Positions 2,301 to 60,500 of a stretch of 64,000 nt of DNA are shown here, one piece after another. The first letter of the stretch is position 1. Each line of letters opens with the position of its first letter. Origin of the DNA: Owenia fusiformis (taxonomy: Eukaryota; Annelida; Polychaeta; Sabellida; Oweniidae). The stretch spans positions 24,305,985 to 24,369,984 of the forward strand of contig CAIIXF020000004.1 in assembly GCA_903813345.2 (NCBI GenBank). Direction: 5' to 3'. A program made the translations under genes and the position numbers. Under the pieces are notes generated by a model. The model had not been told where the DNA came from, did not search any database, and saw nothing but the letters and a program-made list of their open reading frames with translations.

Positions 2301-2315
2301 AAATTCCCTTGGGGT

Positions 2316-2321
2316 TTTATT
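2316..2321 (-). promoter_or_regulatory. Candidate poly(A) signal AATAAA of the secreted modular gene
   Basis: The plus strand reads TTTATT, so the minus strand carries AATAAA about 600 bases past the stop codon at 2916. It is the best match seen downstream. With AT-rich DNA such a hexamer is common by chance, so the call is weak without transcript ends. Confidence 0.2.
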
Positions 2322-2753
2322 AAGTTATAGCGAATAAACAGAGATCCGTTTAGAAGCTAAAATTTAGAAATGCACTATAAAAACTCTCTAAATATGTAAC
2401 TACACATTCTACAATCATAAAAGCATAATATGGTAATTTACTAGTATCAGGCTTTTATCAAGATATCAGATCAAGAGAGGTTTAATAATTTTAAATCTGC
2501 ATTGAAGGATTCTAAACTACCTGACCACAGATTTCGACTTCTATGGGCAAAAACTTCAGTTCAAAGCTAGATCGGGTTGTTTTGGCTTAAGAATAGAATA
2601 CGAAAAATGGGAACAGGGATGGGATCTTGGATCTAACTTCCATATTACACGCGTTAATTACGACCGTATTTATACGGAATATACCCAAAAGGTATAACTC
2701 ACCTTCATCTGTGGTAAACAAAAATACAAAAATAACATTCAAAATTGATACAA

Positions 2754-2901
2754 GTTATGCCTGGGTCACATTTGCTCCGATCCATCGGCCGGCGCCCAGG
2801 CGATTGAGTGTTTTGCTCAATGTTGTATTCAATTTTGAACAAATACTCAATCGGCCGGGCGCCGATAGTTAAAATTGGAGCAAATGTGAACAAGGCATAA
2901 C
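2754..2901. mobile_element. Foldback MITE with GC-rich arms
   Basis: An imperfect inverted repeat with arms of about 58 bases. The left end begins gttatgcc and the right end closes ggcataac; both arms contain cacatttgctcc, then a ggcgccc/gggcgcc block, then gattgagt. The centre is a short AT spacer. It lies 15 bases past the stop codon, inside the probable 3' UTR of the minus-strand gene. A single half copy of the same arm is at 9512-9571. Confidence 0.7.
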
Positions 2902-2915
2902 CGTATCATTGTAGA

Positions 2916-3271
2916 TTATGGTGATGTTTCATATTGTTTGTCTATGAAAAGAGCAGACTCGTTACCATTGGTTGTTCCAGTTGTTGTTGTTGTTGTTGTT
3001 GTTGTCGGTGGAGGTGTTGTCATGGCGACGCAGCATAAACGCTTCACCGTTGTGTAGGAGACGCCATTGCATTGTTGAACCCATCGTTTTCCACTGCATG
3101 GTATACATTGTCTCACAACTTGACAGTCATAGTTTGTCATAGTACATTGAGTCGCACGTTTCTTCATCGAATCATGCACTTCACGTTTTCCCGGAATCGG
3201 CACACAACCAGCTGGTGGATCGCATTTAGTAGGAACATCCATCCACTCTCCCCAATGACCACACTGTGGTT
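2916..3271 (-). CDS. Exon 12: divergent TSR-like module, Thr tract and stop
   Basis: Begins PQCGHWGEWMDVPTKC, again a W-x2-W core, then eight more cysteines ending LCC. A poly-Thr stretch coded mostly by ACA triplets follows, then a short tail ending YETSP and TAA at 2916. The Thr run is likely O-glycosylated and, being a triplet repeat, likely length-variable. No membrane anchor or GPI-type tail is visible. Confidence 0.8.
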
Positions 3272-6200: not shown

Positions 6201-9200
6201 TTGCATACACTGGAACAGTTATATGGAAATTTGTTACTGAAGGTTTCAATACAAGCATTCAACTGGTTCAGGAGCTATGATCATTTACATAACATGCTCC
6301 AAATAGGCACAATTGAGACCAACGCAGAGTTGGATGGCAAACTACCCTTACATGTTCTGCCCTCTATGGCATTATTATGGCATTACATATAGCAGTGATT
6401 GCCTTCTTTAGGTCAACAATAGTCTGAGGATTGTTTTGGTATAGATTGTCTTTCAAATATCCATACAAAAAGAAATCAGCAGGATTCAAGTCTAGGCTGT
6501 AATGGCAATGAAGGGTTATCTGACATGTGGTTCATCATCCTGTTGCCAAAGTGCTGATTTACCAAATCTTAAGAGTCACTTTAGGTATTGGGCATAGTGC
6601 CATGTTACTAAAACCACTATATGGCACAATTAAATCCCATATGAAAACAAAGGGCTGCCCAAAGCCTCCTTAGGATGATACTGTAACTGAGTGGGACCAC
6701 TGAGTCAGAAGCCATAGGTCAAATAAGCTTCGTCTCCATACACCTCAAATTTGAATCCACCTGATTTCTTTTTGTGGGGCAATTTGAAAGACAATGTGTA
6801 CCAAAACAATCCTGAGACAATTGCTGACCTAAAGGTGGCAATAAATGCTAAATGTAATGCCATAACAAGGTCGGAATATGTAAGGGTATTTGCCAAATGT
6901 ATCCAGCTCTGCGTTGGTCTCAATTGCGCCTATTTGGAGCATGTTATGTAAATGATCATAGCTCCTGAACCAGTTGACTGCTTGTATTGACACTTTCAGG
7001 AACAAATTTCCATAGAACTGTCCTGATGTATGCAAAATTTCATTGATGTCACTAGTCTATTTTAGGAGATATTGCCTATTTCAATGGTCTCCTTTTTTTC
7101 TGGTCATCCTGTATGTATCATATTGATCCTAACTTTAACATTCGGCATGAACATCAACCTTTCATTCCATGTAAAGAAAACATAAATTGATTAGATATTG
7201 ACGGAGTGGGAGCTGTTACTATGACCAATACTTTTGGCAATTTTAAGCATTTCTTGAAAGCATTATAAGCTATTATAATCATATATTTGTATTAATATGA
7301 GGAATCGGTTGCAATATGAAAGAACGCTTATTTTCAATATTTTGCCCAAGTTGGGGTGATATATAAATGTGATATTTTCAGTAAATTCATATTTCATTTA
7401 AGAAAACGCTGAGTATGATGTTTTAGATAATTATATATTTGACTTAAAACCACTGCTGCATAAAATAATTTTCTAAATTTTGTATTGACCATCTTGTCTA
7501 TTCAAACATTGGACATTTCTTCTCCATATTGCACTTTTGAAATAAAAGGGTATCTTTTAAGAAACGGTACCTCGATCATAAAATATGAATAAGATACAAT
7601 GCGATTATGTTTCAGTATAAATTGTAATTTACTCACTTGGCGGTGGTGGTAACGTTATAGGATGTCGCATCTCTGAAAAGAAAGATGTCTATCATATGAT
7701 TAATGTATTAATTTCCTGATAAATTTCTCCATTATATGTCTGTCGATTTTGCATTTCAAATAATTCAAATTCCAATAAAACTTTTCAATGTCAAGGAAAC
7801 AACACATGGGCGAAGAAAACTTACAAAGAGAAAACTTACTGCAAGTTGGGACAGAACCATCCCAATATCCATAACTCAAACATGTGATATAGCTCTTCCC
7901 GACCATATAGTAACCTAAGTCACACACGAATCGAATCACTTCCCCTTGGTAATACGGCTCAGTATCACTGCCGAGGACCCTTCTTCCATATACTGGTGCG
8001 TATGGTTTAGGACGAGCACAGGTTACTACGAGACCGATTATTTAAATCAATATCAATTTCAACAATAACATGCATTGTACAAACAATTTACTATAAAGAG
8101 CTAAATAACTAAAAGCGTTGACCTGAACACAAATTCCATATGGTGAGCAGGTGCCCGAAGTTCACAAGTATGTTACTTTAAAGAAGGGGGAGTTGTCTGT
8201 AGAATGAATATTTTAAGCATTTTCCTTATGTGTTTCATCCCAAAAAAACATCAATACGCTTTAAAACATTTTATTTACTATAAGATTGCCTCATATAATC
8301 CAAAAATTCTCATTTTCAAGGATTAACTATGGATTAACACCCAGGTATTCTCATTTTTCAAACTTCAGATGACTGAGAATGAGTTATCCTATTCGCTTTT
8401 GAATAACATCACTGTTTTAAAATGCCCGATATTATATTAAAATGTGCATGCGTTCAGGCTCTGTTAAACTATAAAATAATAGAGAATTCCCCGGGCTCGC
8501 CTGTTGAAAAGTAGGTGGCCCTGGACTACACCGGGAATTTACCTCCATGATGATTACACATATTAATATGAGGCTCCTAAAGGGGCATGTTACTAGGCGA
8601 TATACCATAAAGCATGTGCCTTAATGCGACTATGGAGTATTTAAAAGACGAGTATGACAAATAAGTGATTGCAAGTGTTAACTCTGAGTAGAACGTCCAT
8701 CTCACAGAAGTCTTATTTGAGTAACAAAATAGACTGCCAGTTCTGTAGTCCATTGATATATCAGTAAGTAAGTTAGGTTGACATATTCTGAGTACTTGAG
8801 TTCAAGCTGAAAGAAATTGAACATACAGTTCCAAATACAGTTCTAAGCAAATTTTGAAATATAAGAAAGTAAATCTTTAAAACACGCCTTTTTGGATTGC
8901 GATATAAACAAAAAAAACAATAATGTGTAAGATTTAATTTTTGTTACAAACCACTACGAAGGCTGGACGAAAGAAAAAATTTACGAGTTCTACATTCGCA
9001 CGCATTTCAATGATATAATCAATACTTTTGATTGACTGAACTTCACAAAAAAAATCTTGTAAAAAACACTGCAATATTATCCATTGCATATTTAAGAAAT
9101 TGATTGAAATGCATTTGTTAAGACAGTACTATATCGATAACTAAAAAAAGTATGCTCTGAAAATGAAATCAGTTTTGCCGGGAAAACAGACACGCGTTGA

Positions 9201-36500: not shown

Positions 36501-39500
36501 GTTGTATATCATGTCGATGTATGTTGCATACTGTCTGCTGTTGAGGAAATAGTATGCTCTACACGGACTTTATGAATCATCATATGGATTAAGTTTTTCA
36601 AGTCTAGAGATTATTTGATATGATATAAAATATATGTGCATACAATGGATGACGTAAGTATTGTTTTATTTAAATTATATTTATAAAAAGTATTCATAAA
36701 GTATAGGGAAGTTAGAAGTTAGAATGAGACAAGGATGCATATATCACTGAAGGTCATACAGTCGTGTCTGGACTCAATAAGGGAATATCACCAAACGAAA
36801 CTAAATGGATTTAAAGTATAATTTGTATCATAAATGATGAAATCGTGGTGCATCTTTGATATTCACATGGATATGTGACTTCACCATATGTGCAAAACGT
36901 AAAATGTTACAATTAAAAAATATTATTCGATAACTTAAGTTAATATCTGCAAGAGTTCATAATTTATTGCAATTTGACCGATTTTTATACTAATGATTAA
37001 TAGTGTTTGATTTGCTCTTTGCTACACTATACAGAGAGCTGGAATGTAAGCATCTGTACACGGGTTTATTTCAAAATGATTAGTTAGACTAGTATTGAAT
37101 GGGAATGAGTAGTCCTTTTGGTACATCTGGTCCCTTGACCCCCATCCCCTATCTACATCAGTTGAGGTGTGTGTGGGTCACAGGGGCTCTAACCAAGAAG
37201 TATTTAAAGTTATAGTTAACATATCCAAATAATTATGTTCCCTTACGAAATATTCTTATAAAATACAAATGAAGTGTAACAGTTGACGTAGCAAAAGAAA
37301 ATGAGAAATAGACTTAACGTGGCAGATACTTATAGACAATAGATAGAATTAAATAATTTCATCCAATTACTAATCCAAATTGAGTTCTATGTCAGCCTGA
37401 TCTTTATGTGAGATACAATTATTCATGCATTCTATAATCAATACTATATGCATACCAAGTTAATAATTTGCAAAACAGCTTTCAAGTAAAATTTTGCCGT
37501 ACTTGACTCTTTGTAATTTATATCCATTGATTTGCATGGACTCCTCGTTATGTATGCAAATGGCATAACCCTTTAGATAACACACACATGAGAGAAATTC
37601 CACGTTGGTCATTTGTTAAAATGAAAAATAAGACAAAATGAGAGGAATCAACGAGAAATTAAATGATCTGCCATTTAGTTTTCACTTTAATTGAATAGAA
37701 ATGACAAAACATAATGTAGTTTTGTTACTTTTCAAAGAGAAGGGCGTTATATCGGTATGGCAAAATCAAAGATTAAAGCAAGGTACACGAGGCCAAAGGC
37801 TTGAAATATTACCATAAAGAATATTCTTTATGGCGTTTACCTATGCACTTTGATCTTGTTCAAGTGAAATTCACTTTTATGTTAATCGTTCTTTTTTAAG
37901 ATTCAAAAATATGTAAAATTAGAAAGTATTTCTAGAAATATTTTAAAGTAAAATGTTAACTTTTGGGGAAAACCTTTTTATATACGTGATTAATAAAGTC
38001 AGTTATGTTGAAAACGATCTACATTTACAGCATTTCTTGCATGGATATCACTAAACCACGCCACCTGCTTTGCATTTATTATACCGGTTGCTGAATTTGA
38101 AAACGACAATACAAATAAAGGACTGACTTAATATTAAAAATGCTTAACTCAAGTGGACTTTAACTTATATTAATTCGACGACCCACATATTAAAACATAT
38201 GGGTGGCGCAATTACTATAATCCAGTGACAATAAATTACAATATAAAAGTCTCTACTTTACTAAGCACATACTCAAAGCTTAACATCAATGGTATTTAAA
38301 ATGTATGTTATCTTGAGTTATTTCACATGTACATATAAGATACTGTGCTGATTTTTTCTCACCTTGGTTTCTTATTTGAAGTGATTAGCGTGGATTAACA
38401 AGATTAAAGGAATGTCTTCACAACAAACCGTTTACAACCCGTTAGAAGGATTTAGATGTGCTTACCACATGGACCTACCAGCTTATTTGGTTAGTTTTAT
38501 GGTTGTAATTTGGTATGTGTATGAATATATTAGCTTATTTGGTTAGCTTTATGTTGTGATTTGGGATGTGCATGGATGTATTCAGTTAGTTCTATGGTTG
38601 TAATTTGGTATGTGTATGGATATATTAGCTTATTTGGTTAGCTCTATGTTGTGATTTGGGATGTGCATGGATGTATTCAGTTAGTTCTATGGTTGTAATT
38701 TAGTATGTGTATGGATATATAGCTTATTTGGTTAGCTTTATGTTGTGATTTGGTATGTGCATAGATGTATTCAGTTTGTTTTATGGTTGTAATTTGGTAT
38801 GTGTGTGGATATATTAGCTTATTTGGTTGGCTTCATGTTGTGATTTGGTATGTGCATGGATGTATTCAGTTAGTTTTATGGTTGTAATTTGGTATGTGTG
38901 TGGATATATTAGCTTATTTGGTTAGCTTCATGTTGTGATTTGGTATGTGCATGGATGTATTCTGTTAGTTTTATGGTTGTAATTTGGTATGTGTATGGAT
39001 GAAGTAGCTTATTTGATTAGCTTTATGTTGTGATTTTGTATATGTATGGATATATTAGGTTAGTTTTATATTGTAATTTGGTATGTGCATGGATGCATTT
39101 TTTCTTATCTTATTTGGTTAGGTTTATATTGTGATTTGGTATGGGCATTGACGTATTTGCTTATTTGGTTAGCTTTATGTTGTAACTTGGTATGTGCATG
39201 GATGTATTCAGTCAGTTTTATGGTTGTAATTTGGTATGTGTATGGATATATTAGCTTATTTGGTTAGCTACATGTTTTGATTTTGCATGTGTATGGATGT
39301 ATTCGGTTAGTTTTATATTGTGATTGGGTTGTGCATGGATGTATTTTTTCTTATTTGGTTAGCTTCATGTTGTGATTTGGTATATGTATGGGTGTATTAG
39401 CTTATTTGGTTAGTTTCATGTTGTGATTTGGCATATGCATGGTGTTTTCAGTTAGTTTTATATTGTAATTTGGTATGTGCATGGATGTATTTGCTTATTT

Positions 39501-42500
39501 TGTTAGTTTTATGATGTGATTTTGCATATTGTGTTGATGTATTTTCTTATTTGGTTGGTTTTATATTATGATTTGGTATATGCATGGATGTATTTTCTTA
39601 TTTGGTTATATTTTGATTTGGTACGTGCATGGATGTATTAGCTTATTTGGTGAGTTTTATGCTGTGCTTTGGTATGTGTGTCGATTCATTCGCTTATTTG
39701 TTTGGTTTTATGTTGTAATTTGGTCAACTTTATTAATCTGATTGGATAGATGTCTATTGTGATTTGGTATATGTGTGGGTACATTTGTTATACGTTGTGA
39801 TTTGGTATCTGTGTTGATAATTTGTTTTACAATTTGATTTGGAATCTGTGTGGATACATTAATACATTTTTGTTTTACGTTGTGATTTGGAATCTCTGTG
39901 GATACATTTGTTTTGCCTTTAAATGATTTGGTAATTGTGTGGGTACATTTATTTGACGTTGTGATTTGGAATCTGTGTGGATGCATTTATTTTACGTTGT
40001 GATTTGGTTTCGCATATGCATTGTTTTAAAAGTATGCTGCAATATATGTATTTATATGTGTTTATAAATGATATTACTTTGCTCTGGTTTCTATTTTCTG
40101 TTTTCCCCATTGGCAAACTGCAAAATGTTACACTGTAAAACTAATGCATCGAACAATACTATATTATAAGATTATGAATTTTATGATTTTAATTCATTAA
40201 TATAAATATATATTCTAATTACACGTGTGGCCTTATGTCAGTATCGGTATTTTTGGAACGCCCTTTCGAACTTCCTTTTTATAGTAATACATTCATATTG
40301 TAGTTAACCCCTTGGTCACATTGCTATGCGTACTCAGTACTGTATATGATAGATTGCTCAAAGTCCAAGATGTAGGTGGGATGTATGTCTTAATTTTATG
40401 TTGATGTTGTTTGGTTTTAACCGTGGTTACCTGGGTTTCAGAGTAGCATCGATTTCATTAGAGATCTACTTATATCAGTGACTCATCGTATTGACCAATG
40501 ATTTAATTGAAAGGTACTGTACGATGTCGATGGTTATAAATTTGAGTATCTCTCGATTTTTTGTATTCGTAAATTGAAACATAGCAACAAAATAATTCTA
40601 GTTCCAATGAGCGCAAAAATGTAGATGGAGAACTTACCGCAAGGTTAATTTCACTTATAAAACTATATACCTACTTGTCAAATGCATGTATCTACTCCAC
40701 GCCTATGGGCTCTTTAAATATTTTGACAAGTACATTCGCTCGACCTTGTTTTATTTTTACCCTGCCATCTACTATTATTAGAATTAGGATCTACTACATG
40801 AACTGTGTATTTTTGCTTTTAAAACAATATGATGTGATATCGAAAAAGCATTTGAATGAACGTGGTGATTTTAAAAGTTGGAACTATCGCGGTTATTGTA
40901 TTGTCAATTTTCACCGATACCTAAGTCTCCCCTTCATCTCACTGTAAAGTTCATATTTGTCATTAAAATGCATTTTAAAATGATCGCAATAACAAATTCA
41001 TTTTCGTTTTTGAAGTTTTCTCAAGAAAAGGAATCGCCGATGGTACAAATGTCATAAGAAAAGCAATACGTCATTTGAGGATGAATTCCTTAGAGTTATA
41101 CCTCGCGTTATTTGGCATTTATTACTCTAAATGTCGACTATATGCTATAATTTGTTTACATTGAAATCCAACAATGGCGACTTTTATTCCAATCCAGTCA
41201 TATAATGCTAAATACATCAATGATTGTTCACTTTCTGAACAGAACTCGGAGACGTTGAGCTAATACTATACGCAGTATCTTATAATAAATTCATGTAATG
41301 GCTGACGATACCACCTTTAATACTTGTATTAAAATGGATTTAATGAAATACCCGGATGATACTAACAATGTAAGTGAAGCATTCAAACTTACAAACCTCT
41401 TTATAAGTTTTTTAACATGTAATGTTGTGGAATTGGATTGTGTTAATGGTTTCGGGATTGTGGGGAAGAGTCGTTAGACAAGGTTTCCTTGTAGCCCATT
41501 ATTTGTTTTCTTATGACTGGTTGTTCTGTATTTAGTTTTCTTCACTTTGGTTTTAACACTGTCTGAACTTTCACTTTTGGTAGTTGTATTTACATATTTA
41601 ATTGCCATCAATTATACGGATGACCAGTACATCAGAAGGTTTATGAATTATCACACGTTTAAAAACAACGAATTTAATAATGACGTACAACGTAAAAAGC
41701 TTATTTTGATGGATGTATCTTTTAACATACATATTGTATTAATATTGTTTTGGTATTCACCTGCGACCAAAGGCATACATGTGATAAATTGATTCCCTCA
41801 AGCCCGTTTTGCTATTTCTAAAATTTTGAAATCTTGATATATTTCATTGATGATATGATTTCCTTTCTCTAAAAGAGCTGTAGTTGCCTCTGTCCCCCAG
41901 AGTATATTTTCAGAATATCATAGGTACAACATCATCAGGCCCATGGCCGGGGGGGGGTCGATGGGTTCGAGCAAACCCCCCCCCCCTGGCCAAAAAACTT
42001 TCAAAACCATGCAGTTTTTCACCATTCTGAGCACTTTTAAAGTGATTTTGGCCATTTTTGGACCACAATTGTCACAAGTGAACCCCCTGGAATTTTTCAA
42101 AAAGTTAACCCCTCATTGGCAAATCCTGGCTACGGGCCTGGTCATAACATAACAGTTTCAATTAACATGAAACAAAATAAAAGTTGTTACTACATAATAT
42201 CCCGGTGGACATGTGACACGTAACATTTTACACACAAAAACATTGAACTATTTTGGGCTAAACAGTTATGTAATCATATTATAATATAGAATATTACATG
42301 CACTCTAAATATAGTCAGTTATACATACATACATGTTCTGTACACGCATATTACTATCAGCTTAATTTTGCATCTACACATTGCAAATGTGTAGATTAAA
42401 AACAATTAAAAATATAGTATTGACACGTGAACTTTATATTAAGCCTGTAAATTACAGGGATCATTTGATCTAAATACAATAAACAAAATCAATAATATGT

Positions 42501-45500
42501 AGTCATCATACGATTAAGACATAATTGAAAATGCAAAATAGAGTAAAAGAGAGTGAAATCAGAAAGGAATAAAATAATCATTCATGGTGTTAAAACCCTT
42601 TATTGTATTAAGAAATGCTTAAAAACAAGGGAATGCAAAGACAATTAAACTGTGAGTGAAATAATATGGACGGATAAAGCTAATAGGCTATGGTATCCAT
42701 GCAGTCGACCTTAACAATATTAACCACCTGATTGACCTAATCTGTTAAGTACATGTATTAATAGAGCACAACTGGATAATTGACAATTAACATTAAACAT
42801 TGTTTTTATCTACATGTTAAGAGCACTTTAGTCAAAACAAGGAAAATACTTCAGTCGATGTGATTTGAAAAACACATGATTTAGATGTTAAAATAAGGAA
42901 AATATTTCACAGGAGCATAATTTACCGTTAATGACATAGTAAAGGTTAATAACAGGGTAAATGAAAGAGGAGGGTTTTTGATAAATTTCTTAGGTACTAT
43001 GATGGCGTTTCCACGATGCACGAGGGTGAGTGAGTCTGATATAAAAAACAAATTTGATATATTGAGAACATAAAGCATTGCGTATACACCTTAAATCTCA
43101 GGTAGAACGAGATTCACCTCGTGAGAATAAAATGTTTGTTTTGGTTTTGAGAAAAAAACGTAAATATAAAATTTGTTGAATGACATTGTTATGACTGAGA
43201 ATAAATAAACAACGTAAGTGATGGGCGTGTTAGAATTGGAATACAAGTAAACACACCTTTTAAATAAAGAAAAAATAAAAACAAACAACTAAAACATGGT
43301 ATAATGTATGGTATGTGTCATTTCACAGTATATTAATTAGATATCATAATGTAAATATGCTTTTTTAGTAAAACATCTTAATCCTTTGAACAAAAGTAAC
43401 GTAAACATGTATGAGGTTGTGTTAAAGATCTAAATCTTTTCAACACTGTGTAAACATTTGTGTTTTCCAGAATGCCTCCAACCGTTACAACTACACGTCC
43501 ACTCCCAATGGACTAACAAATGGAGATGGTCCTTTAGTGAGGGAATCCTATGTTAAAGACATAAAGAAGACCATTGATTATGAGGTGAATATAACTTGAC
43601 ATTAGGGCATTTGGGATTTTTATGGCACAACCAAAAGTGGTGACATATTGTTATAATCGTTTTCGTTTCATGGACGTTGTTTGACGTTCGGGAATAAGTG
43701 TTTGGCGGTCAGCGTCTGCAAAAAATGGCAGGTGGTGATATTTGAAGGTTAATGCCTTGTTTCCATGATATGAAAAATGAAGAGAGAATATGACCTCGTA
43801 TGATACAAGATAAATAGGGTAAAATATGTTTATACTGACCAGTGGTTTCAACCGGTCTAATAAGTATGTTATGGGTATGTTATTAGGATTATTGATACAT
43901 CCAAAGCTTTTGACAGTAACTGAAAAATACATTATGTCAGAGCTCGATCAATTATTTCATGATGCATATTCTATACGTTTCTGTATGTTTTAGGGTTTTA
44001 TTTGAAATACATGTATCATACCTCAGAAAGCCTCATTTAAGGGTTCTCGTAATGTAAATGGTGTGATTCAAAGACGGTAAATACGCCGTTCAATATTTGG
44101 TAGTATCTCATACTTGAGTGGGTTTGGGGTAGATATCACCCGGGAATATATTTCGTATCTGAGGAGCGGGCAGGATATATTGTATATGTCCCGCTCCAGG
44201 CCAAATGCGGGCAGATATAATATATCCATCCCGCTCCCGGGAATTTTTCAAAAGTTTAAATATCAAAAGTTTTAATTTTTTAATTAAATTTTTTAAGTTT
44301 AAATGTTACAATTTCATTGTATTGAACAAAAAGAATATTACGAAAATGTTAAATACAAATATCTTGTCATTTGAAAAAGGTGGAAAAGGTTATATCTACC
44401 CTAAACCCACTCAAGTATGAGATACACCAGTTATGCACGGTCGGTTTGGATACATGGAATATCCCTTGGGATAAACAATACATCTTCCCTCGGTCCCTTC
44501 GGTCCCTCGGGAAGATATATTGTATATCCCTCGGGATATTTCCTGTATCCAAAACCTCCCAGTGCATAACCCCTATATATCCAAGAGTTAATGGCATACC
44601 CTCCTCCTCACGGTATAACTATGATCAGACAAGCAGGAATGCTGTCTACAACCAATCTATGCTCTTTTGGTAAAAAGAAATCGAGCCCCAAATATAACAC
44701 ATTGTGATGTAATGCAAGGAGAAACAAAGTTGAATGTTCCTTCCCCCATCACCCTGGCATAAAGAAACTTGAATATCCAAATTATCACCGAAATATGATC
44801 TGACACACATAAAAACAATGTCGAACATATACTTATTAAAATAGCTCTGGGATATTTAATAATTATAGATTCACAACACTCAAGAACCCAGATCATATGC
44901 CAGAACATCGTGATAGAATGACACACTTACATTCAAATCATTTTTACAAGTTGAGATACTTGAATAATTTCATAAACTACGATTGGAATCATGTTAGACA
45001 AGAAGTATGTGCTTCATTGCAATCATTAACATTATGTTTTACCTGGCATGGAAAATAATGCTTTGATTCTGTGAACAACATCATTGAGAATTGTAAACGA
45101 CTACTTCAATGTTACCACGATTATCATGTTAATCAATAACTGACAATATTTTGTAATAATAATGTTACCATAGCGACCTTATAGTCTGTATTCTTATCAC
45201 TACTATATATTTTATCACTGATCATAGTGAACGTCAGTGCAAAGTTCAATTAGGTTTCATTAAAATGAAGGTGTAAAATACAACCCGTTCCTTAGATTAA
45301 AAATAGATGTTAACATTGTTTCCTTGTTATGCAAGACCAAGTAGTTTCTATTTTAGAGTGATCGCAATGAATTATCTCACAGTTGTAAATCATGTTGATT
45401 TTAATATGGTATTTATGAGCTTTGCTTATGACATAATAACATTTAGTGTATATTTTTGAAGGGACAAAACATACAGATCAAGGTGCTTTATTAGCATTTA

Positions 45501-48500
45501 GCATGTAGGTGGTATTGACTTAATCAAAACGTTGTCATTGTTGAGAAAGGTTTCTTTAAGAGACAGTGAATTACATCTTTAAAACTTTAAACATGGTAAG
45601 TAGAGAGTATTCAATATTTTGAATGTGGGCACATTGATATATATACAAGGTGTTCCATCGTTGTAATAGTTAAGAATTGATGCTTAGTGCTGAAATGATT
45701 CCATCAAAGATTATAATTAACTTTACGTTAATTTTTTGTTCGTATAATAATCAAACTAATATATTCTTTCAGAACAATGTCGATGCCAATCAATATGCAG
45801 TCCCAAATGGACCATCTGCACATTGGGCACATTATCCATTTCACGTAAGTGTTTGGCAAGTCTGTTATCCTTTTGCTATTTTATTTTCATCATTTGTATG
45901 TGTATTGTCCTATTTTGCTATTGTAGTTTAAGCATTTGTTTCACTTCATGCATTGTTATATTTTGGATTACATTCTATGCACCATTTTAATTAAACGTGA
46001 AACTATTTGCTAACTTTCTTTCAAGCTTATCTAGACACTGTAAAAATCGTTGATGCATTTGGAATAGATAAATATGTAGCAGCGAGATTTATGCAATTTC
46101 TGAATAACTCATGAATATTTCCTTGACTGGTATTAGTCTTAATTTTCTGTATGACACAAATTTTATATTCATAAAATTGTAATGTGAATGTATGTGTTGG
46201 AATGTACAGCTTGAATATACAATATAAAAACAGATAAAGATGGACCTGATATGGATGATAGTGTGTACTATCTGTGTTCTACATATGCTCCTTATTCATT
46301 GATAAAAACGTAACACATATGATAACATTAATCAAACTTGCAAAAATGCAGTTATCTGCTTATCAATAAAAGTAACATTGAATTTAACCACATTACATTA
46401 CTGAACGTTATTTTACATTACATTACTGAACGTTATTTTACATTACATTACTGCACAATTACATTACTTCACAATACATTACTGTATATTCCATTACAGG
46501 TTACTACAACAAGGCCTCTTGAGGACAAAGATAAAATCCCTGACATTGCCAACTTAGAAAGTCTACTGAATGTGAGTAGATATTAAAAATGGAAAGCATT
46601 ATTGAATGCGCATTGGGATTCAATAGGATTGATTTTGAAAATGACAGTCATACAATTAATTAATTAAGGATTGAATGCCTATCCAGTACCTTTAAGAAAA
46701 TACACATAGAAGGAAATCAAAGTTTTGAAAGGATTGTAACTTTGGGATTTACACATGAATAAACCTAAACTGGAATCAAATACAGATTAAGATTCTAGTG
46801 TATGTATAAAAGAGGATACGATTGCTGTACATAAAAAAATGTTAAAAATTTCATTTCAGAATCTATCCACAGAATTTGACAAGAGGGCAGTAGACCTCAG
46901 TAAAGATGATGGTATATTTAGAAATCAGAGCTCTTCAATCTCATCACTGTCTTCCTCTGTACAGGAGAGTATTCTTGGGACCAAGGCAAACTGGTCCTGG
47001 ATTGCAAATATGGTCAAATGTATGGATGTTCATTTGTATAATGCTGCAGCTTACCACCAGGTAAACAAATCAAAATTAGAAAATATAGAAATCAAATATT
47101 TCAAAAGCAATAATAAAGACATGCTGAAATGGGTTATACAGCTTAAGAAAGCTGAACAAAAACACATTTTAACTTTCCCCATTTTGATTACCCATCCTAT
47201 ATTAATATATAGGATTTCTTTCTTCGAGATAAACTGTCTCTAATATTAATCAGAAAGTACTATTTGTTTTACCTTTGTTATATCCATGACATATAGGTTC
47301 CTCTTCTTCCCATATAGGTTCCTTGTCATATGATCTTTATGTTGTATGTAGAGGACCTCCTTATTTTTCTCTCATGTATCTGATATTGGCACAATGCAGA
47401 TTTACAATTTCCTCTGTTTTATTGTCTGAAATATAAGATAATGTTTAGTTCCCCTTGATGTTATGTGTAATGTACCAAACTATGAAGCTCCCACCGCTGC
47501 CACCATGTGAAGTAATAATAAAATAAATAGTAGTTGACAGTTGTTGTAATAAATGCTCTCTTCTTTATATGTATATGTACTGGTTTGAATTTTCACATTG
47601 TATATTGTTTTGCAATTGTCTAGTTCAACAATGAAATGCATGAATATAAAGAATAACCTTCATGACAAACAACATTTTGCTTGTTCTAGTTCAACAATGA
47701 AATCCAGGAGTATGAAAATAACCTACATGACAAACATTTTGCTTGTTCTAGTTCAACAATGAAATCCAGGAGTATGAAAATAACCTTCATGACAAACATT
47801 TTGCTTGTTCTAGTTCAACAATGAAATCCAGGAGTATGAAAACAACCTACATGACAAACTTACAAAGCTTGCTCAGGTGTTTGATAAAGAAGAACTAGAA
47901 GATGACAGGAAAAGTGCCAACAAAATAATTGCAGAGTTAAAGGTAAGGAATTTCCATGAACTAAATAATGTCAGCTTGCTTTTAAAATGGAGACATACAG
48001 TGTATATGTAAGTATGCACCTCTTATGTCAAGATGTGAAACATTAATTTGATGGACTTATCATAAAAACTGTGACATACTTCCATTTAGCAAAATAATGT
48101 GGTGATCTATCTCTATATCTTATAACAGGTTCTGTATGAATGAAATGTCACTTGGTGTTATGGTGATAATGGAACTTGAATGATGTAGGGATGGGGGTAT
48201 TCAACTTTATTTATTTTCACTTACGATTGTGGTTTGTGATAGTTGGGATTTTTTTGCTTATGACAGGTAAACACTTCTTGCTGGGTTCTGTAACAATTTT
48301 TAGCCATTTTCCTTTGGCACTTGGGAGTACATATCAATTTGTTTAACTCTGCTATTATATTATATGCTAGACAATTCCTTTATAGGATGCACACACAGTC
48401 TACCTAACATGGAGAGAGCGTGGCTATCACATGATGGAAAGATGTAGAGATTTGGTCCCAGTTAATAAGAGAACAGAACCTGTAGAGGCCCCACTACCAG

Positions 48501-51500
48501 TCAAAGCTTTGTGTAATTATAAGACCAAAGATCTAGAAATCCGAGAAGGGGAAGATCTTATTCTCCTCGACAACAAAGATCCTAACACTTGGAAGGTTTG
48601 TTTATTCATTTATTTATTTACTTTTGCTTACATGTAATTTGTTGAATAATTCAGTTGTTCAATTTATCAAAGGTCTGTGAATTTATGAACCATGACTGCA
48701 GCTTTTGGAATGTTGATTGACATTCACACATTTTTGAATGTTGAGACTTTTGTCTGTCCCTCATCGTTTGCGACTACTTGTTCTTCAACGTGTGTTGTAA
48801 TGAGCCAAATATGAATGAAATAGTAGATTTTGGTTAATAGCTTCTGAATAATGTGAGGGAAGTATGGCATTGTTTCTGTTTTCTGAAATCATTACATGGG
48901 ATGTTGCAAAATCGCCATATGTATTATTACATAGTCATATTAAAAGGTCAAGCATAGAAATTGATAATGCTTAAAACTTTAGGTTCACATACATTCAAGT
49001 CAGTAAAGTATGTTGAAAAAGTTCAAGCAATTTATGAACTTGTTTTAGGTGAAGAACGCTGATGGGAAAGAAACAACAGCCCCAGCATTGATATTCCTCA
49101 TCCCACCACCAGATAGTGTTGCAGTCGACAAAGTCATGAAGTGAGTTTATGTGTACTTTATTAAGGGTCCAATGTGTCATTTAAAAGATATAAACTTGCA
49201 AACATGTACAGTGGCTAGCAAAGTATGGATGGTGATGGATTTTGTTTCTTTGAAAGTCATATAACTTTGCAATACAGCACCACATCTTGTATCAGAGATC
49301 TACTTATACGGGATGTTTTAACTTCATTACATTACATCAAAACGTCTCCGCTACTGGATATTAAGTGACACATAAACGAAGGAAGACAATTACTTTATTG
49401 TAATTATTTATCAAAATGAAAAAATAAATAAAAAGAATTGATATAATTCTAATTGACGCTTTATTTCAGATTACGAACACAACTTTTGGGCTACTGGACA
49501 GTTAGTAACAAAGTCCTGGGAAAGACAACTATTTGGTTCATGTGCCTAGTGTTTAGAGAATGGTCTGATGATGAGATCCAGATGTTGAAATCCATGCCAG
49601 TATCAAAGAAACAAGAAATTTTGAGAATCCTACAACTGATAGAAAATACCCTAGGTTAGTTTATTAATCAGAGTACACACTTGAAGAACAAAATATCCAA
49701 TAGTTTGGGAGTAGTTTTCTATGTCCATTTATTTAACTGCAATGTGTCAAATGCCACACATTTTATCAATCTTCGTTATGTCACAAGCAAGAATAGAAGT
49801 AGCCCATCAGATGTTTTGCAGGTGGTGACATATCATGTTAATGCCTGTTGATTTCTTTACTTAGGTGTTCATTGGTACAAGTACTCATGTTAATGCATTG
49901 TTGATTCCTATATCTAGGTGTTCATTGGTACAAGTACTCATGTTAATGCCTGTTGATTCCTATATCTAGGTGTTCATTGGTACAAGTACTCATGTTAATG
50001 CCTGTTGATTCCTATATCTAGGTGTTCATTGGTACAAATACTCATGTTAATGCCTGTTGATTCCTATATCTAGGTGTTCATTGGTACAAATACTCATGTT
50101 AATGCCTGTTGATTCCTATATCTAGGTGTTCATTGGTACAAGTACTCATGTTAATGCCTGTTGATTCCTATATCTAGGTGTTCATTGGTACAAATACTCA
50201 TGTTAATGCCTGTTGATTCCTATATCTAGGTGTTCATTGGTACAAGTACTCATGTTAATGCCTGTTGATTCCTATATCTAGGTGTTCATTGGTACAAATA
50301 CTCATGTTAATGCCTGTTGATTCCTATATCTAGGTGTTCATTGGTACAAGTACTCATGTTAATGCCTGTTGATTCCTATATCTAGGTGTTCATCGGTACA
50401 AGTACTCATGTTAATGCCTGTTGATTTCTTTATTTAGGTGTTCATTGGTACAAGTACTCATGTTAATGCATTGTTGATTTCTATATTAAGGTGTTCATTG
50501 GTACAAGTGCTCATGTTAATGCATTGTTGATTTCTATATTTAGGTGTTCATTGGTACAAGTACTCATGTTAATGCATTGTTGATTTCTATATTTAGGTGT
50601 CCATTGGTACAAGTACTCATATTAATACATTGTTGATTCCTATATCTAGGTGTTCATTGGTACAAATACTCATGTTAATGCCTGTTGATTCCTATATCTA
50701 GGTGTTCATTGGTACAAGTACTCATGTTAATGCCTGTTGATTCCTATATCTAGGTGTTCATTGGTACAAGTACTCATGTTAATGCCTGTTGATTTCTTTA
50801 TTTAGGTGTTCATTGGTACAAGTACTCAGGTTAATGCATTGTTGATTTCCATATTTTGGTGTTCATTGGTACAAGTACTCATATTAATACATTGTTGATT
50901 CTTATATCTAGGTGTTCATTGGTACAAGTACTCATATTAATACATTGTTGATTCTTATATCTAGGTGTTCATTGGTACAAGTACTCATATTAATACATTG
51001 TTGATTCTTATATCTAGGTGTTCATTGGTACAAGTACTCATATTAATACATTGTTGATTTCTATATTTAGGTGTTCATTGGTACAAGTACTCATGTTAAT
51101 GCATTGTTGATTCCTATATCTAGGTCTTCATTGGTACAAGTACTCATGTTAATGCCTGTTGATTTCTATATTTAGGTGTTCATTGGTACAAGTACTCATG
51201 TTAATGCATTGTTGATTTCTATATTTAGGTGTTCATTGGTACAAGTACTCATGTTAATGCATTGTTGATTTCTATATGTAGGTGTTCATTGGTACAAGTA
51301 CTCTGGCTACATTGAGCTGCAAGATAGGATTCACAACCTGAGAAAAATCATAAGAGATTCACTAGATTATGAAGGAAAAGGTGTGTAATGTTTGTACTGT
51401 AATTTGTACCGTAAGCTTAAAATCATGTTTTTCTCATCATATAATACTATAATCATTTATCAACAAAAGGAATAAGAGGTTATTTATTCAATTTCTGAAT

Positions 51501-54500
51501 TTACTTTGTTACCAAACGCCTAATTTTTAATATGTTAAATCTTTGAAATTTAAAATTTTAACAACAGCATTTCAAATTGTTTTGTTACCTCTACTATTGA
51601 CTCTACATTTCATCTCATCAATTTTTTGAGAAAATGGTGTGACTATCAAGGCAAGTGATTGGTTAAGATTGAAATATATGAGGAAAGACATGGATACTAC
51701 AATGAATTTAGGAGTCCATGTGATATTAAGAGCCTATCCGAGAATCGTGTCACCAAACTTGCAAAACATTGCAAATCAAAAATGTTCAAGCAAAAAACTC
51801 CATCAATATTTGCGTGTGCATGTCTTGTGCATGATTTAATTTGATAAAAATGAATAATATTACTAAATATAATATTACTAAATGAACAATATGATAAGTT
51901 TGTATTGTTTTCTTTCCCTCCATAATTATCATTATGACGGTGAGTAAAAATTCCTAGATAATATTTATATAATACGATATGCTTGATCATTGTAGCTTCT
52001 ACAGTATATGTGGTGATAGCATGTATAATGGTCACGCTTCCCCCTCCCTAGAAAAGCTATCCTAGAAAAAGCTGTGTAATTATAAAAATAGATGTAGCAT
52101 TTTATGTTGTAACAGGTACATGTATAATGATCCCTTGCTTACTACAATTATCTGTACATTATTAGATGTATTATATTCATAGGAATAAGGCTGACATTAA
52201 ATTGGTCGTGGTGTTGTTTTTACCATTGACAGAAACACCGAATGTAAATCCTGTGCTCTTACCTAAATCCTATGAAAAATAGGTTTGATGACATTGTCAT
52301 CATCTCAAATGTTGGTTTACGACAATCAATCCTATGGTTATAATAACATTTTGCTTACTATGAATTGTAGTATAAAAATATTACATGTAATGTACATTGC
52401 AAATAACCATTACTGATTATAATTACAAATTGGTACGTGCTTAGATAATCATGTGATCAAATGGACAATTATAATTGATAAATGTGCAAAAATAATCATA
52501 ATTAAGACCAAATGTCTGGTATAATTGACATCTGAGTAAATAACTCACTGTGAGATATAACAGTTTACAGTTCTAGGCTGACATTGAGGTGTAATCATCC
52601 AATTTTTTGATGATTAAGTTAAGATAGAATGACATCTACCTCATACTTATATTAGCTGATTATTACTTGTATTATAAGACATGGTGATGGTATGAATTAT
52701 TTACAAGCCTATTAATATACATGTAAATGTAGATATACTGGTATGTATTGAACTAATCAATGCACAAACAAAGCTATTATATAATTTTTATGATTTATGT
52801 TTATGAAAATATTTATCATTTATGAGGATGCTTCATTATGACATGCAATGAAGATCACACTAATTTAGTAGACAGGTATACTATATTTCTAAAAGTTGCG
52901 ACTTAACCTGATCCGCCTTTTTGTTGTTTGCTATAGCAACCGTAACTTTGGCCAATCAAATGGGAAAAGCTTGAAATTCACAAAATAAAGGTAAAGGGGT
53001 CTGTTTTACACCCTGCCCAAATTTCATTACGATTGGTGCAATATTAAGAAAATTGCAGTATCTTTCATCTTATTTATTGGGCTCCCTGTTATGAAACATA
53101 CAGACATTCATTTATCCTGTGTTGTAATTTTTTTATTTTCAACATTCCACTTTTTATTATTACTTTTAGTAATGATTTTTGTTCATATATATGTACTTTA
53201 AATTTCAGATGGTGATGATGCAGCCACTAGTCGTGTTGTGATACAGGTGGAGACATTGGAGAAGCTTTTGCAAGCTTACCAGGTATAGGAGTATAACAAA
53301 GAGTGCCCATAAATGACCAAAATAACAGATACAAAGCCCTTTAATTGAACACCCATAATAATAATGATAGATGTGTTAATAATCTAACACCCTCAAATTT
53401 GATAAGTAATAATGACCCATTAGAATATTAAATATTGAATATTAAAATTTTTATTTTACACCCAGGATTTTACATATCTTGGAATACTTTATATACGTAA
53501 CTAATAACTTAATATGAATATGCATTGTAATACCCTCAAATATGCTGCCCCATTTAATATTAATTAACTACAATTAACCTACATGATATAATTAAGACAT
53601 GTTAATTGTTTGACATGGACAATAAATCTGATGTAGAAACAATAAAAACAACCTAGTTGAACCTAAACACATTCTATTTGTAGAATTTCTGGAATGACTG
53701 GGAAGCCTACAAGATCCTGGTAGAAATCACCAGACATCCCAAGTACATGCTTGTATGTGACAAATGGGACCAACTCAACTTCGCATCCACTGCTTATATT
53801 CTCAAGTAAGTGCTTTATAAGTAAACATGACCAGACATCCCAAGTACATGCTTGTATGTGACAAATGGGACCAACTCAACTTTGCATCCACTGCTTATAT
53901 TCTCAAGTAAGTGCTTTATAAGTAAACATGACCAGACATCCCAAGAACATGCTTGTATGTGACAAATGGGACCAACTCAACTTCGCATCCACTGCTTATA
54001 TTCTCAAGTAAGTGCTTTATAAGTAAACATGACCAGACATCCCAAGTACATGCTTGTATGTGACAAATGGGACCAACTCAATTTCGCATCCACTGCTTAT
54101 ATTCTAAAGTAAGTGCTTTATAAGTAAACATGACCAGACATCCTAAGTACATGCTTGTATGTGACAAATGGGACCAACTCAATTTTGCATCCACTGCTTA
54201 TATTCTCAAGTAAGTGCTTTATAAGTAAACATGACCAGACATCCTAAGTACATGCTTGTATGTGACAAATGGGACCAACTCAATTTCGCATCCACTGCTT
54301 ATATTCTCAAGTAAGTGCTTTATAAGTAAACATGACCAGTGCCTTACCAAAATTGAACAGAAAAAATCTTTAAAAAATTGCGTGCAAAAGAAGTTTAATA
54401 TCTTCTTTGGTTTAAGTGTTGCCTCAAATTCTTTGAAAATTATGTCCAAAAGAGGTTTAATATCTTCTTAACTTAAAGTGTTGCCTCAAAATCTTTGAAA

Positions 54501-57500
54501 AATATGTCCAGAAGAGGTTTAATATCTTCTTTAGTTTAAGTCTTGCCTCACCAATTGAAATTCACCTTGCCTTTTATTGTATTCTGACTATAACTTTGAT
54601 GAGATTTGTCTATTAGAAACATTAATTAAAGGGAGAATCAGATCTATGGGGGTGATAAAATTACAAGCAACATGTACAATTGACCTACTAATCTATTCCT
54701 TACAATATCAATATCTCCCAAAAGATTCATGATATGTTATAAATTGGTGAAGTTATAATGGATTCAAAGTGCAAAAATGGGTGAAAAATGTTTAAATTCT
54801 CCCAAATAATAAGAATGGTAACCATTCTTATAGAAAAATAATACATTATTGTAAAAATCTTGAGATTTCCTGAAATAACACTTTGGGTATTTTAAGAAAA
54901 AAGACATGAAAAGAAATGACATAAGCCAGAAATATTCTAAAATTGAAACACTTTTTTGTAAGCCTGCTCGCTAGATCTGATTCTCTCTTTAACAATTATT
55001 TAACTTTATCATAGGTACTGGCATACAGAGTTTAGTGACAGAGATCTTGGAGAGAGAGATGAGACTGATACTTTCTCAGAGACATCTTCTGTCACCTCAA
55101 GAACCTACAGAATGCAAGATGTTCAGGTAAGAAAATGGTCGTCATGGTTATGGTTTAAAATACAGAATGACTGGGGAAGAGTGAAATAGCCGGAAAATAA
55201 TGTTATGAGTCATTGACAGTGAAACCTGTATATCCGAACATCTCTCTAATCTGAACACCTCTTAATGTGAACACTTTTTCTTGGTTTCTAAATTGTGTTC
55301 TCTCAATCAATGACTTACATGTTTTTGAAACCTTGTAATGTGGACACCTACTAATCTGAAGACTTTCGGCCAGTCCCAGAGGTGTTTGGAGTAAACAGGT
55401 TTTACTGTAACTCATAATCTGAATTGTATAGAGATGTTGAAAATAAGGCTTTTTATTTAAATTCCAGAAACAAAAGACTGAGGTAATAATTAAATAACGG
55501 GGAAATCTTTGCTGTACAAATGGATATCTTTGATATCTAATTTTTGAATTGTTAAAATATGTAGGCACACTTGCAAGGGAGTCGGACCTAAAGTATTACA
55601 AAGCATTGTTCGCAAAGAACATAAATCATAGACAATTATCAGGAAGGTTAATCCCAATATCCCAAATTATTATATACTTAATATGTAACACTAATCCTGA
55701 TTGGTCAATACCTAGTCACGTGTTCCGAAATAGATTTACTATTTCCCTCGGAAAGTTATATTCCCTCAAATGTGATGTCAGCGTGAATATACATTTGAAC
55801 TATTGCCCGCTGACGTCACGATTGCAACTTATATTACCCTTGGAAACAGAAAAACAGAAAAACAGAAAAATGGAGGATGAGCACAAACACAAATAAACTC
55901 CGTCAACCATGACAGACGTGCGTGAACGATACAGTATAAGCAATGTGTATAAAGTTCCCTAAGCTCAATACGTCTGTGTGATTTCAAGTGTTATGATAAT
56001 CTATTCCGCGTGTTAAACGCGATTGAATTTGTCAAGTGAGAGTCTCAGAGGCAAAAATTTCTGTTGAGCATCTGATGACGTCACAGCTTATAATGCTAAC
56101 AATGGACCCGGGGAAGGGGCTTTCTAAGCCTTTTTGGCCTTCGCAGAGGAAACGGGACAAGAGTCAGTGTAGGGTATATAATAAAACAAATAGTGACTGC
56201 CTAATTTCGAGCAATAGTGTAAATGATTTCCCCTTGGGAATATCCTCTACAATGTACTATTCTCTCAGCCTGCGGCTTCGGGAATAGTACATTGTAGAGG
56301 ATATTCCCAAGGGGAAATCATTTACACTATTGCTCGAAATTAGGCAGTCACTATTTGTATACTATGACCTAACATACATAGAAACAATGTCTAACATCCC
56401 TCCCAAACCTTTCGGTAACATTTTTATCACATATTCCAAATTTTATTCATACTGAAGTCATATGACAGACAATTCATTCAGTTATTCATTCATGTACAGC
56501 AAAGTCTCTTCATTATTACATTATTTTATATGCACCTAAACTTTTCTGATACACAGGTACTCAAGAGCATTTCCAGTCTTGAAGCAGGCGAGGCACTTAG
56601 CCTTGACTGGCTAAAGCATTGATATATATTGGTGCAGTTGTTTGGCGGTGATCTCCCCAGTTTTTTCAAAAAATGGTGTTCAATCCATATTGTACCCATT
56701 TTAGTCAAATAGAATGTCAATAGTGTCAATAAGTTATGTTCTTGATAGGGTGCATACAGATTTGCAATTAGTAATCTCCAAGCATTTCGTTCAGTGCAAT
56801 CATGCCTAATTTCTAGGTAGTGAGGTACAGTGCAACAAACAAAACTGCTTTTGGAGATATGTCCAATGAGCTGACATGTTAACATGTAGTTTTTGAATTT
56901 TGAAAAGGGTAAAGCACATCGGCACCGTGTTGCTTCAATCCTGAGGAGATCACTGTCAATAAGTATGAATACGAGGGATGTTCAATAAATATGTATACAC
57001 ATTTTCTCATTAACATGTTTATTAGGAATCAAGATGAAAACTTTACAGATTGAGACTTGAGAGCACTGTTTCTGTTTCTATACTGACCATATGTTATAAA
57101 TAATTCATTCCAGGCACTGTTAAAATTACAATAAATTTAATATAGGATGAGGGTACACACATAGAGCAATTTTTATTCTTTTTATATGATCACTCACAAC
57201 ACTTTCTTTTCATGCAACTTGAAATCGTAGGTGGCCAAAGGAAATTGAAACTTTTTACTTCAGTTATAAATGGGGAGGTTTTATTTACTTTTCCGGGATT
57301 TGGATGCTGTTATATATTTTAATCGCAATGTCGGTGCCATCTTTGCTTGGAGAAATGCCTGCTGTTCCTATTGGGTGTTGAGCGTTGCTATGGAAATGGC
57401 ATATTTGTTTGGGAATTATGGGACTGTTATCATAATGGATTCAATAAGTGGATAAAAAAACAAAATAAAAATAAAAAATGAAAAAATAAAAACAATCATA

Positions 57501-60500
57501 ATGGATTCAACATCCTGAACCCAACATAAAAAAACATAAACTATAATATTGTGTACATATATTGTGATCCAAGCAGTTTAATATATTTTTGAATTATAAA
57601 TAAAACCACTAACTGCATCGTTTGGGCAGATGAATGGACATTGGAGGATGAACTACAGTTGGGCATTTTTGAGAATTTTAATAATGGACTGAGATAAAAA
57701 AAAAAGAATTACTTAATATAAACCCATCCAATATGTATATTTTCCAACTGAAGTTTATCCATGTAACACGTTGGTCATTGGTGTGCCAAGGTACAGTGTT
57801 AATTTAAACCCAAAATAATATTGGAACCTCACTATTGTTTTCAGAAACCCATGTGGGTTAAAAACAAACAAACATTATTTAGACACATAACAAAATCTAT
57901 GCTTTATACTGTGTTAAAGGAGTGGTATCGATATGGAGAACTGAATTCAACAATGTTTTTCTCTTAAACCAATCATTGAAAACATTCTGTAAAAAAACAC
58001 GGTATTTTATGTAATGTTGACTGATTGACAACAATTAAATGCAAAAATTATTTATATGTATTTTATATAACTGTAGCATTTTTTGTTTTTAGTGCAATTG
58101 TTTTTGCTCCTTTCTACCAATTCTTGAGAATGAAATAAAATGTCTTTCAGAACCTTGTTTGAACAAAATAGCATATACAACATGCTTTTAGACCTCTCAA
58201 TATTATAGTTATACAAAGGAATTTTTGGTTGATTTTAAAAAAGTATTCAAAAAATTAAAACAAAATCCCCCCAAAATAGATAAAAATCAAGATAAGCCTT
58301 TTATTTCATTAACAAGATACTTTTTAAAAATCAACCCAAATTTCCTTTGTACAATTACAAAATTGAGAGACCTAAACATGTTGTGTTTATGTCGCTTTGT
58401 TCCAATGAGGTTCGGAAAAATGTTTCATTTCACTCTAGAAACATGATACCAAGAACAAAACAAGTGTTTGATGTGTTTTCTGAAACAATATAGATGAAAG
58501 TATATATATATTTTTCAAATTATATTGTTACCATTCAAAAGATGATCATTAAATTGACGATGTGTTAAATTTTTAGATTTTTTTGATGACTGGTTTAAGA
58601 GAAACCTGTGTTCAAAAAGTTCTCCATATCGATACCACTCCGTTGTCAAGAATTTTGAACCAATTTATATATGCATACAATGTGTTCCAAGCTTATTATG
58701 CATGGTGCATGACATGTTAGGGGCCGAGTCAAAAAATCAATGCTTTCATCTCTTAAATAATTTATAAAGGCTTGCCCCCTTAATTATTTTGTTGAGTAAT
58801 ATTGAATCTTATATCATTTCCATTATGTTTTTTACATTGAAACTGTCCCTAAAATACTAGATTGGAACTTTTTTTACATTTCCATGAAAATGACATCTTG
58901 ATGTTTGATCTGGCCTCTTATATGGGTAAATTATATGATATGAATACTACGGTACATGCTTGTTTTTGACTTAACCTATTAATTGTATATTGAATACTCA
59001 TTCTGCTAAAATAAAGTATGCATTATTTTGCGACTAAAATATTGTGTATGTCATACTAATAATATTCAAGCTTTTCTTAATGAATTTTGCATTACACTAT
59101 AGGCAGAAGGTTTCACCCGACTAGACAATAATTTGGTAAATGAATTTCACATTATACAAATGTTGTGGCATAGCAGTAGTAGTGTGAATTTAACATGGTT
59201 TGTTTTGGTTGTGTACAGGGGTATATATAGTGAATAGCATATTTAATGTGAATTTAACATGATTTGTTTTGGTTGTGTACAGGGGTATAGCCAATAGTGT
59301 ATATAGTTTGAATTTAACATGGTTTGTTTTGGTTGTGTATATACAGGGGTATGGTGAATAGCATAGTATAGTATGATTATATATTAAAATGGTTTCTTTT
59401 GTTCATGTTACCTGGTGCATAGTATATAAAGTGTGAATTGAAAATTGTATTGTTGTAGGTATTTTTCCGGAATAAGTACATATGAGCATACATGCGTGTT
59501 CCCTACGATGACTTTAACATGGTTGATTTTGGGTGTATCACCATGTTAAGTACATTGCTATATTTAGTTTTTACTGTGAATTTAACATGGTTTGCATTGG
59601 TTGGCATGGATGTCTAGTGCTAGTGCCTAGTACACTACAAAGCATGTGTGGTTTAAATAACAACTATAGGTTTCAATTGGTTGTGATACCCTAGTATACT
59701 TTACAGCATTTATTTTTTGATTTTAACATGATTTGTATTTAGATAGTTTCCCAAGGGAAGTACTTGGCATATATAGGAAATACATCGAACTTCGACATGT
59801 GGGATTACTTCAAAATGGGGCTACTTCGACCATGGCTGATTATTCCCAGGGTTGGCATTTTGGATTTAGATCTCGCCAATTGGAGATTTCAATATATTTT
59901 TAAATATCAAACACGGCGGAATGTGTGAATTGAAAACATAAGCCAATGTTGAAAAAGCCTCATGACGAAATAACACCAAACGTCTAAGTTTGATGTATTT
60001 CCTCTTCACATGTAAAGTTTGAATTTAACTTGTGGTTGATATTGGGTTTAATCCCGGGCTTAGAACATAGCAGTTTAACTTAGAGTTTAACTTAGATAGT
60101 ATTGGTTGTGCTCCAAAGTAGTACAGCTACAGGTATTATATGATGTTAATTTAACATGGTTTGCATTGGTTGTGATATCCTGGGTTTAGTGAATGGCATA
60201 GATATTGTGACTTTGACATGGTATGTATATGGCATATCAGGTATATAGTGTGAATTTATAGTACATGTAGGTCCGGAGGATTTACATAAAAAGAGTGAAA
60301 CCATAACATATATTTTACAAGTTCTGTTATAGCTCATTAACAGTTTACTTAACAAGATTATTGAATAGAAAAAATTTGTTTGAAGTTGTTTTTTACAAAC
60401 TTACATTCATGTTTGAAGCTTTATTTTAAAAATACATGTAAATAAAATCTCTATTCAAATCTATAATCTTTGAAAGTATGAGTTTTAATCAATCCTTGCA

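Follow-up and report, generated by a model that had tools for sequence, protein, structure and literature searches.

How does one gene come to carry several unrelated tandem arrays, each laid across a splice junction, while only one full copy of the affected exon remains? The question is raised by a plakin-type gene in a 64,000-nucleotide stretch of the genome of the annelid Owenia fusiformis (contig CAIIXF020000004.1, here C4, positions 24305985–24369984), which we call the window and which belongs to an assembly of 498 Mb in 525 contigs. The predicted gene occupies 38412–62670 on the forward strand and has 17 exons with GT-AG introns, which join into a single open frame of 776 codons and a stop; its predicted product matches Pfam SH3_10 (E 1.9e-22) and plectin repeats (E 3.2e-18). 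We consider it probable that the arrays are 'mirages', i.e. ordinary local tandem duplications that included an exon edge by chance, were then expanded and have been tolerated by splicing. Arrays of the same kind occur in other genes of this genome, and together they are most likely not a special system.

Tandem Repeats Finder (TRF) and direct reading of the sequence reveal four mutually unrelated arrays in the gene, all on its forward strand and each across one exon edge, two at donors (exons 1 and 12) and two at acceptors (exons 6 and 10). Array 1 (38480–39724, ~51 bp × 23.5, also read as a 95-bp higher-order unit) spans the donor at 38489, and most of its units contain the last ~10 bp of exon 1 together with the donor; GT is kept in 22 of 24 aligned decoy copies, and 18 decoys are found by motif. 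Exon 1 itself (38412–38489) begins with an ATG and ends in TTG followed by the donor gttagt, and its edge is the least secure in the model, being set by frame and consensus only, as our own gene finder models no first exons. Array 2 (47619–47859, 62 bp × 3.8) spans the acceptor at 47814 with a unit made of that acceptor and the first 46 bp of exon 6 (47814–47942), and AG is kept in all three decoys. The much longer array 3 (49833–51303, 52 bp × 28) spans the acceptor at 51282, its unit taking in the first 22 bp of exon 10 (51282–51380), with AG kept in 26 of 27 decoys. Array 4 (53729–54339, 101 bp × 6) spans the donor at 53805, and its unit, the last 77 bp of exon 12 (53684–53805) plus the donor, is recovered as six tblastn rows spaced ~101 bp apart. 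In the gene model each of the four arrays has an intact authentic exon at one of its ends, which confirms the central observation of an earlier sequence-only reading of this DNA.

That reading knew of no named system of this kind. The structure had in fact been named in amphioxus, where PMC3902484 already calls it a mirage. According to PMC3087553, amphioxus mirages are minisatellite-like repeats over 5' or 3' exon-intron boundaries that leave an authentic exon, and the name is credited to a 2002 paper in Nucleic Acids Research on Adh3. In the two papers the units measure ~10–160 bp, AG or GT is kept in many copies, and the genes concerned are Adh3, the globins BflGb6 and BflGb9, troponin C and PGBD5 (the last two from PMC3902484). 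The arrays described here are alike in that the unit spans the boundary, both boundary types are represented, an authentic exon is left and AG or GT is mostly kept; judged from the sequence, the window arrays share every sequence-level mirage feature tested. They differ in lying in an annelid genome, in reaching up to 28 copies and in numbering four in one gene. PMC3087553 also describes amphioxus mirages as length-unstable, with reverse transcription-PCR suggesting regular splicing and the mechanism called unclear; those two properties are amphioxus features, whereas the present arrays are known from the sequence of one assembly. The kind is thus already known, and what is new is its abundance in an annelid rather than a cephalochordate genome. 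Among the literature matches listed, none describes mirages from an annelid or a mollusc, most subscription journals lying outside that search. The Eryth_link_C linker family is an annelid one, and a family search of this genome gave three matches to it inside 15 kb of contig C6; the GFP and mollusc haemocyanin families gave no match on searching the genome, an absence that is no proof. Amphioxus has many GFP genes and a higher G+C than the ~33% of the window (range 0.27–0.37).

A genome-wide search with a piece of each window edge array gave 14, 2, 9 and 4 rows, all in the array of origin except that the exon 1 piece also finds some matches in an adjoining forward-strand array (39757–40008), which spans no edge, and none elsewhere. 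The pieces match their own locus only, and the arrays were therefore made in place; within the limits of this search of the 498-Mb genome, which skips very common words, their units are neither dispersed satellites nor mobile elements. Bases common to both founder ends are ACCAG at exon 12, TC at exon 10, GT in control segment L016 (see below) and none in L008, and such short sharing would fit slippage or microhomology-mediated tandem duplication. The link to reverse transcription suggested in the sequence-only reading is disfavoured for spliced RNA, because the units read are unspliced genomic DNA that contains exon-intron junctions.

The same structure is found in genes chosen without regard to arrays, so it is not confined to one gene. 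Our controls are 30 segments (277,001 bases; L001, L003 and so on) around exons with matches to the plakin protein or to the myosin-head or ABC-membrane family, picked from match coordinates before the arrays in them were seen; relatives of the window gene are located on C4, C7 and C52. Control exons were defined by homology matches and a small gene finder of our own, which on the window gene, part of its small training set, reproduced 15 of 17 exons exactly, missing exon 1, shortening the last exon and calling one false exon within array 3. The resulting exon set was hand-edited after the arrays had been seen, with 25 predicted exons dropped (mostly repeat copies and non-homologous calls), 13 added and 2 corrected, and finder calls scoring below 5 were excluded from it. 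With the filter applied to controls and window gene alike (period ≥25, TRF score ≥100), the segments hold 51 arrays, 32 of them inside gene spans, and 12 of these 32 cross an exon edge: one each in L001, L006, L008, L016, L020, L021 and L029, two in L003 and three in L014. The genes include plakin paralogs, myosins and ABC transporters, and here too homology and the gene finder show the authentic exon to lie at one array end. Six of the 12 lie at acceptors and six at donors which, with the two of each in the window, does not suit a process specific to polypyrimidine tracts or donors, as had been proposed.

Among the clearest control cases, the 91 bp × 11.8 edge array in L014 has a unit that runs into LSAVLNLGD, a myosin-head motif. 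The plakin paralog L003 carries a 62 bp × 19 edge array at the exon that corresponds to window exon 7, which has no array of its own. The L001 array and the donor array of L003 are degenerate (74–78% identity) and are weak cases; the L001 hit, in a short span where the null probability is near 0.9, carries little weight. A further array in L029 (1731–1986, 57 bp × 4.5) begins 3 bp past a donor, a near-miss that was not counted as edge-spanning.

On our reading, random placement accounts for most edge-spanning arrays. The null drops a single repeat unit at a random position within the gene span, barring positions that would take in an entire exon, and was run in eight variants (arrays collapsed or not, a founder of one unit or of 1.5, placements inside exons counted or ignored). 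The sequence-only reading held that such overlaps should be rare by chance, which understates what chance can do, as unit length times edge number is what matters and random placement yields ~6 to 9 of 32. An initial test on known edges only (exons matched by Pfam or protein in L001–L020) gave 4 of 38 against 2.0 expected (P 0.14) and was replaced by the fuller exon set. Nor is there sign of a regional hotspot, since the 24 non-edge arrays show no crowding by edges (mean percentile 0.54, Kolmogorov-Smirnov P 0.27).

Several points weigh against so simple an account. With the curated exons (514 edges) the controls show 12 of 32 where 5.5–9.2 are expected (P 0.0024 to 0.16), a 1.3- to 2.2-fold excess over random placement. 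In the window gene four of eight arrays are edge-spanning against 0.66–1.02 expected (P 0.0023 to 0.011), although this gene was chosen for its arrays and its P is uncorrected for that search. Of the nine arrays inspected, only some have legible founder ends, five lacking a clean partial copy, and splicing is assumed to run correctly past as many as 27 decoys. Pure chance placement may perhaps be an incomplete account, because the window gene stands above expectation and the controls lean likewise; a bias towards edges, at most about two-fold, is possible but not secure. Without hand edits of the exons the control lean over chance weakens: finder exons scoring ≥5 give 10 of 34 against 5.6–9.0 (P 0.029 to 0.40), and every finder call gives 12 of 39 against 6.6–9.5 (P 0.016 to 0.21), one variant without an expected value (arrays collapsed, founder of 1.5 units) being omitted from the latter.

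Of the 16 edge arrays in window and controls, 14 enter the decoy tests; the degenerate L001 array and L003 donor array were left out. In 11 of the 14 the median decoy scores within 0.5 of the used site (in exon 1, L021 and L029 decoys score lower), and strength alone therefore cannot choose the site. All 53 window decoys found by motif are predicted to truncate the protein if used, and in ten control arrays 61 of 63 decoys, four of which lack an intact core, are predicted to cause a frameshift or a stop; the two that keep the frame are both in L021, so that overall 114 of 116 would break it. Productive isoforms, as far as sequence alone can predict them, would thus come from 0 of 53 window and 2 of 63 control decoys, and decoys would rarely be a possible source of protein variants. 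The human G1P3/IFI6 minisatellite, reportedly described in Nucleic Acids Research in 1995, is said to supply multiple splice donors. It is alike in being a tandem repeat that multiplies donor sites and differs in that its repeat is said to give transcript donors, whereas the window decoys would all truncate the protein.

These data are consistent with a history in which a segment of 30–260 bp would be duplicated locally in tandem, by replication slippage or microhomology-mediated joining, would happen to include an exon edge, and would later expand via further slippage or unequal exchange. Splicing would then use the outermost copy only, most simply through exon definition, because no separate donor follows the extra acceptors, and the extra donors come after the true one. 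The extra copies would leave as intron and so be nearly neutral, and the arrays would be tolerated since an intact exon is still present at one end.

The strongest competitor of this history is a mutational one, in which an exon-linked process (nucleosomes, a step in base composition, or transcription and R-loops at splice sites) starts duplications preferentially at exon edges in this genome. Pooling window gene and controls gives 16 of 40 against 6.95–10.2 (P 0.00018 to 0.020, above the null in four of four variants), although the pool takes in the gene picked for its arrays; in the controls alone P reaches 0.16, and 0.40 with unedited exons. Moreover, three of the 12 control hits fall in the single gene of L014, ~125 kb from the window end, and without L014 and L001 the count is 8 of 28 against 4.1–6.5 (P 0.037 to 0.31), while the arrays away from edges do not cluster near them. 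We regard such a process as unlikely. That tandem duplications in this genome arise by preference at exon edges, with ~2% of conserved-gene edges carrying a mirage (12 arrays against 514 sampled edges), is likewise doubtful. Selection, proposed earlier as the keeper of the decoys, would have the repeated sites regulate the gene, e.g. through unproductive splicing and nonsense-mediated decay. The truncation predicted for every window decoy is what such a switch requires, and the AG or GT core survives a little more often than the other dinucleotides in these units (intact in 114 of 121 decoys that could be aligned, against 105.3 expected); the copies are not independent, however, so this excess is weak, and the decoys appear neither purged nor clearly preserved. 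The three plakin-paralog arrays sit on exons whose counterparts in the window gene carry no array, and the occurrence of the feature in unrelated structural and transporter genes suggests no common regulation, which leaves selected decoys decidedly improbable.

Steps towards intron gain or new exons, whether by tandem genomic duplication or exon duplication, are improbable too as an explanation of the arrays, even though PMC3087553 puts mirages forward as a source of new introns. Intron gain through tandem genomic duplication, as set out in PMC4974935, is alike in being a local tandem duplication involving splice signals; here, however, what was duplicated contains an exon-intron border that was already present, and the arrays are not taken to have given a new intron. 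In favour of such a step is the donor-side array of L006 (7813–8934, 125 bp × 9), eight copies of which have an open in-frame piece of 71–75 nt called as exons by the gene finder, and which is a candidate case of a mirage giving rise to an exon. Against this, the window gene model needs no array copy and nearly all decoys break the frame, the exceptions being the two in L021 that stay open. That the copy numbers were inflated or invented in assembly is hardly credible. PMC3087553 does report one amphioxus mirage that was seemingly misassembled in a draft genome, but here copies differ within most arrays (identity 71–98%, with 100% in L008), the edge arrays are at most 1.5 kb long, and the assembly is in few contigs for its size.

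Chance inclusion of exon edges in local tandem duplications, the account that we prefer, also sits beside arrays in the window gene that span no edge. A short-unit array (25/16/5 bp; 46390–46498, forward strand), offered in the sequence-only reading as a weak fifth case at exon 4, stops one base before that exon and was rejected as an edge copy, as it contains zero exon bases. The two remaining forward-strand arrays, at 54363–54550 (62 bp × 3) and 59180–59376 (60 bp × 3.1), are intronic; the unit of the latter has an acceptor-like tgtacag, but the model has no exon there and it too was rejected.

Other features were seen in passing. Intron 2 holds a dispersed repeat of ~480 bp (44103–44583) with at least 40 further near-complete copies (94–97% identical) on 13 contigs, a lower bound because 40 of 1,784 first-look candidates were scored. 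In intron 13, a near-perfect inverted repeat (56186–56358) has two 85-nt arms, 96% complementary, around a 3-nt spacer. A possible alternative last exon lies at 56557–56622, where an acceptor-like acacag is followed by VLKSISSLEAGEALSLDWLKH in the phase of exon 13 and then a stop. Two open reading frames upstream of the gene (4054–4479 and 5397–5882) share a near-identical stretch (EEIHPICICL...GFGNML), a local duplication ~1.3 kb apart. Positions 1–9000 of control segment L019 (C9:37986000–37994999) contain twelve tandem matches to a single myosin-head exon, such as TYSGLFCVVINPYRRLPIY, which we take to resemble clusters of mutually exclusive exons.

Mirages are known but little noticed, and the literature found speaks of cephalochordates; their frequency in an annelid suggests that they arise generally as a by-product where a genome is rich in minisatellites and its short introns are many. 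They carry a warning for annotation, as among the exons predicted by our gene finder eight in the L006 array and one in array 3 of the window gene are presumably false. The arrays are also natural tests of how the spliceosome chooses among many equal splice sites. If the preference for exon edges is true, they would form a natural series of splice sites, each accompanied by 2 to 27 decoys of nearly equal standing, where the right site must be picked by exon definition alone, and would steadily supply material for intron sliding, intron gain and new exons in animals other than cephalochordates.

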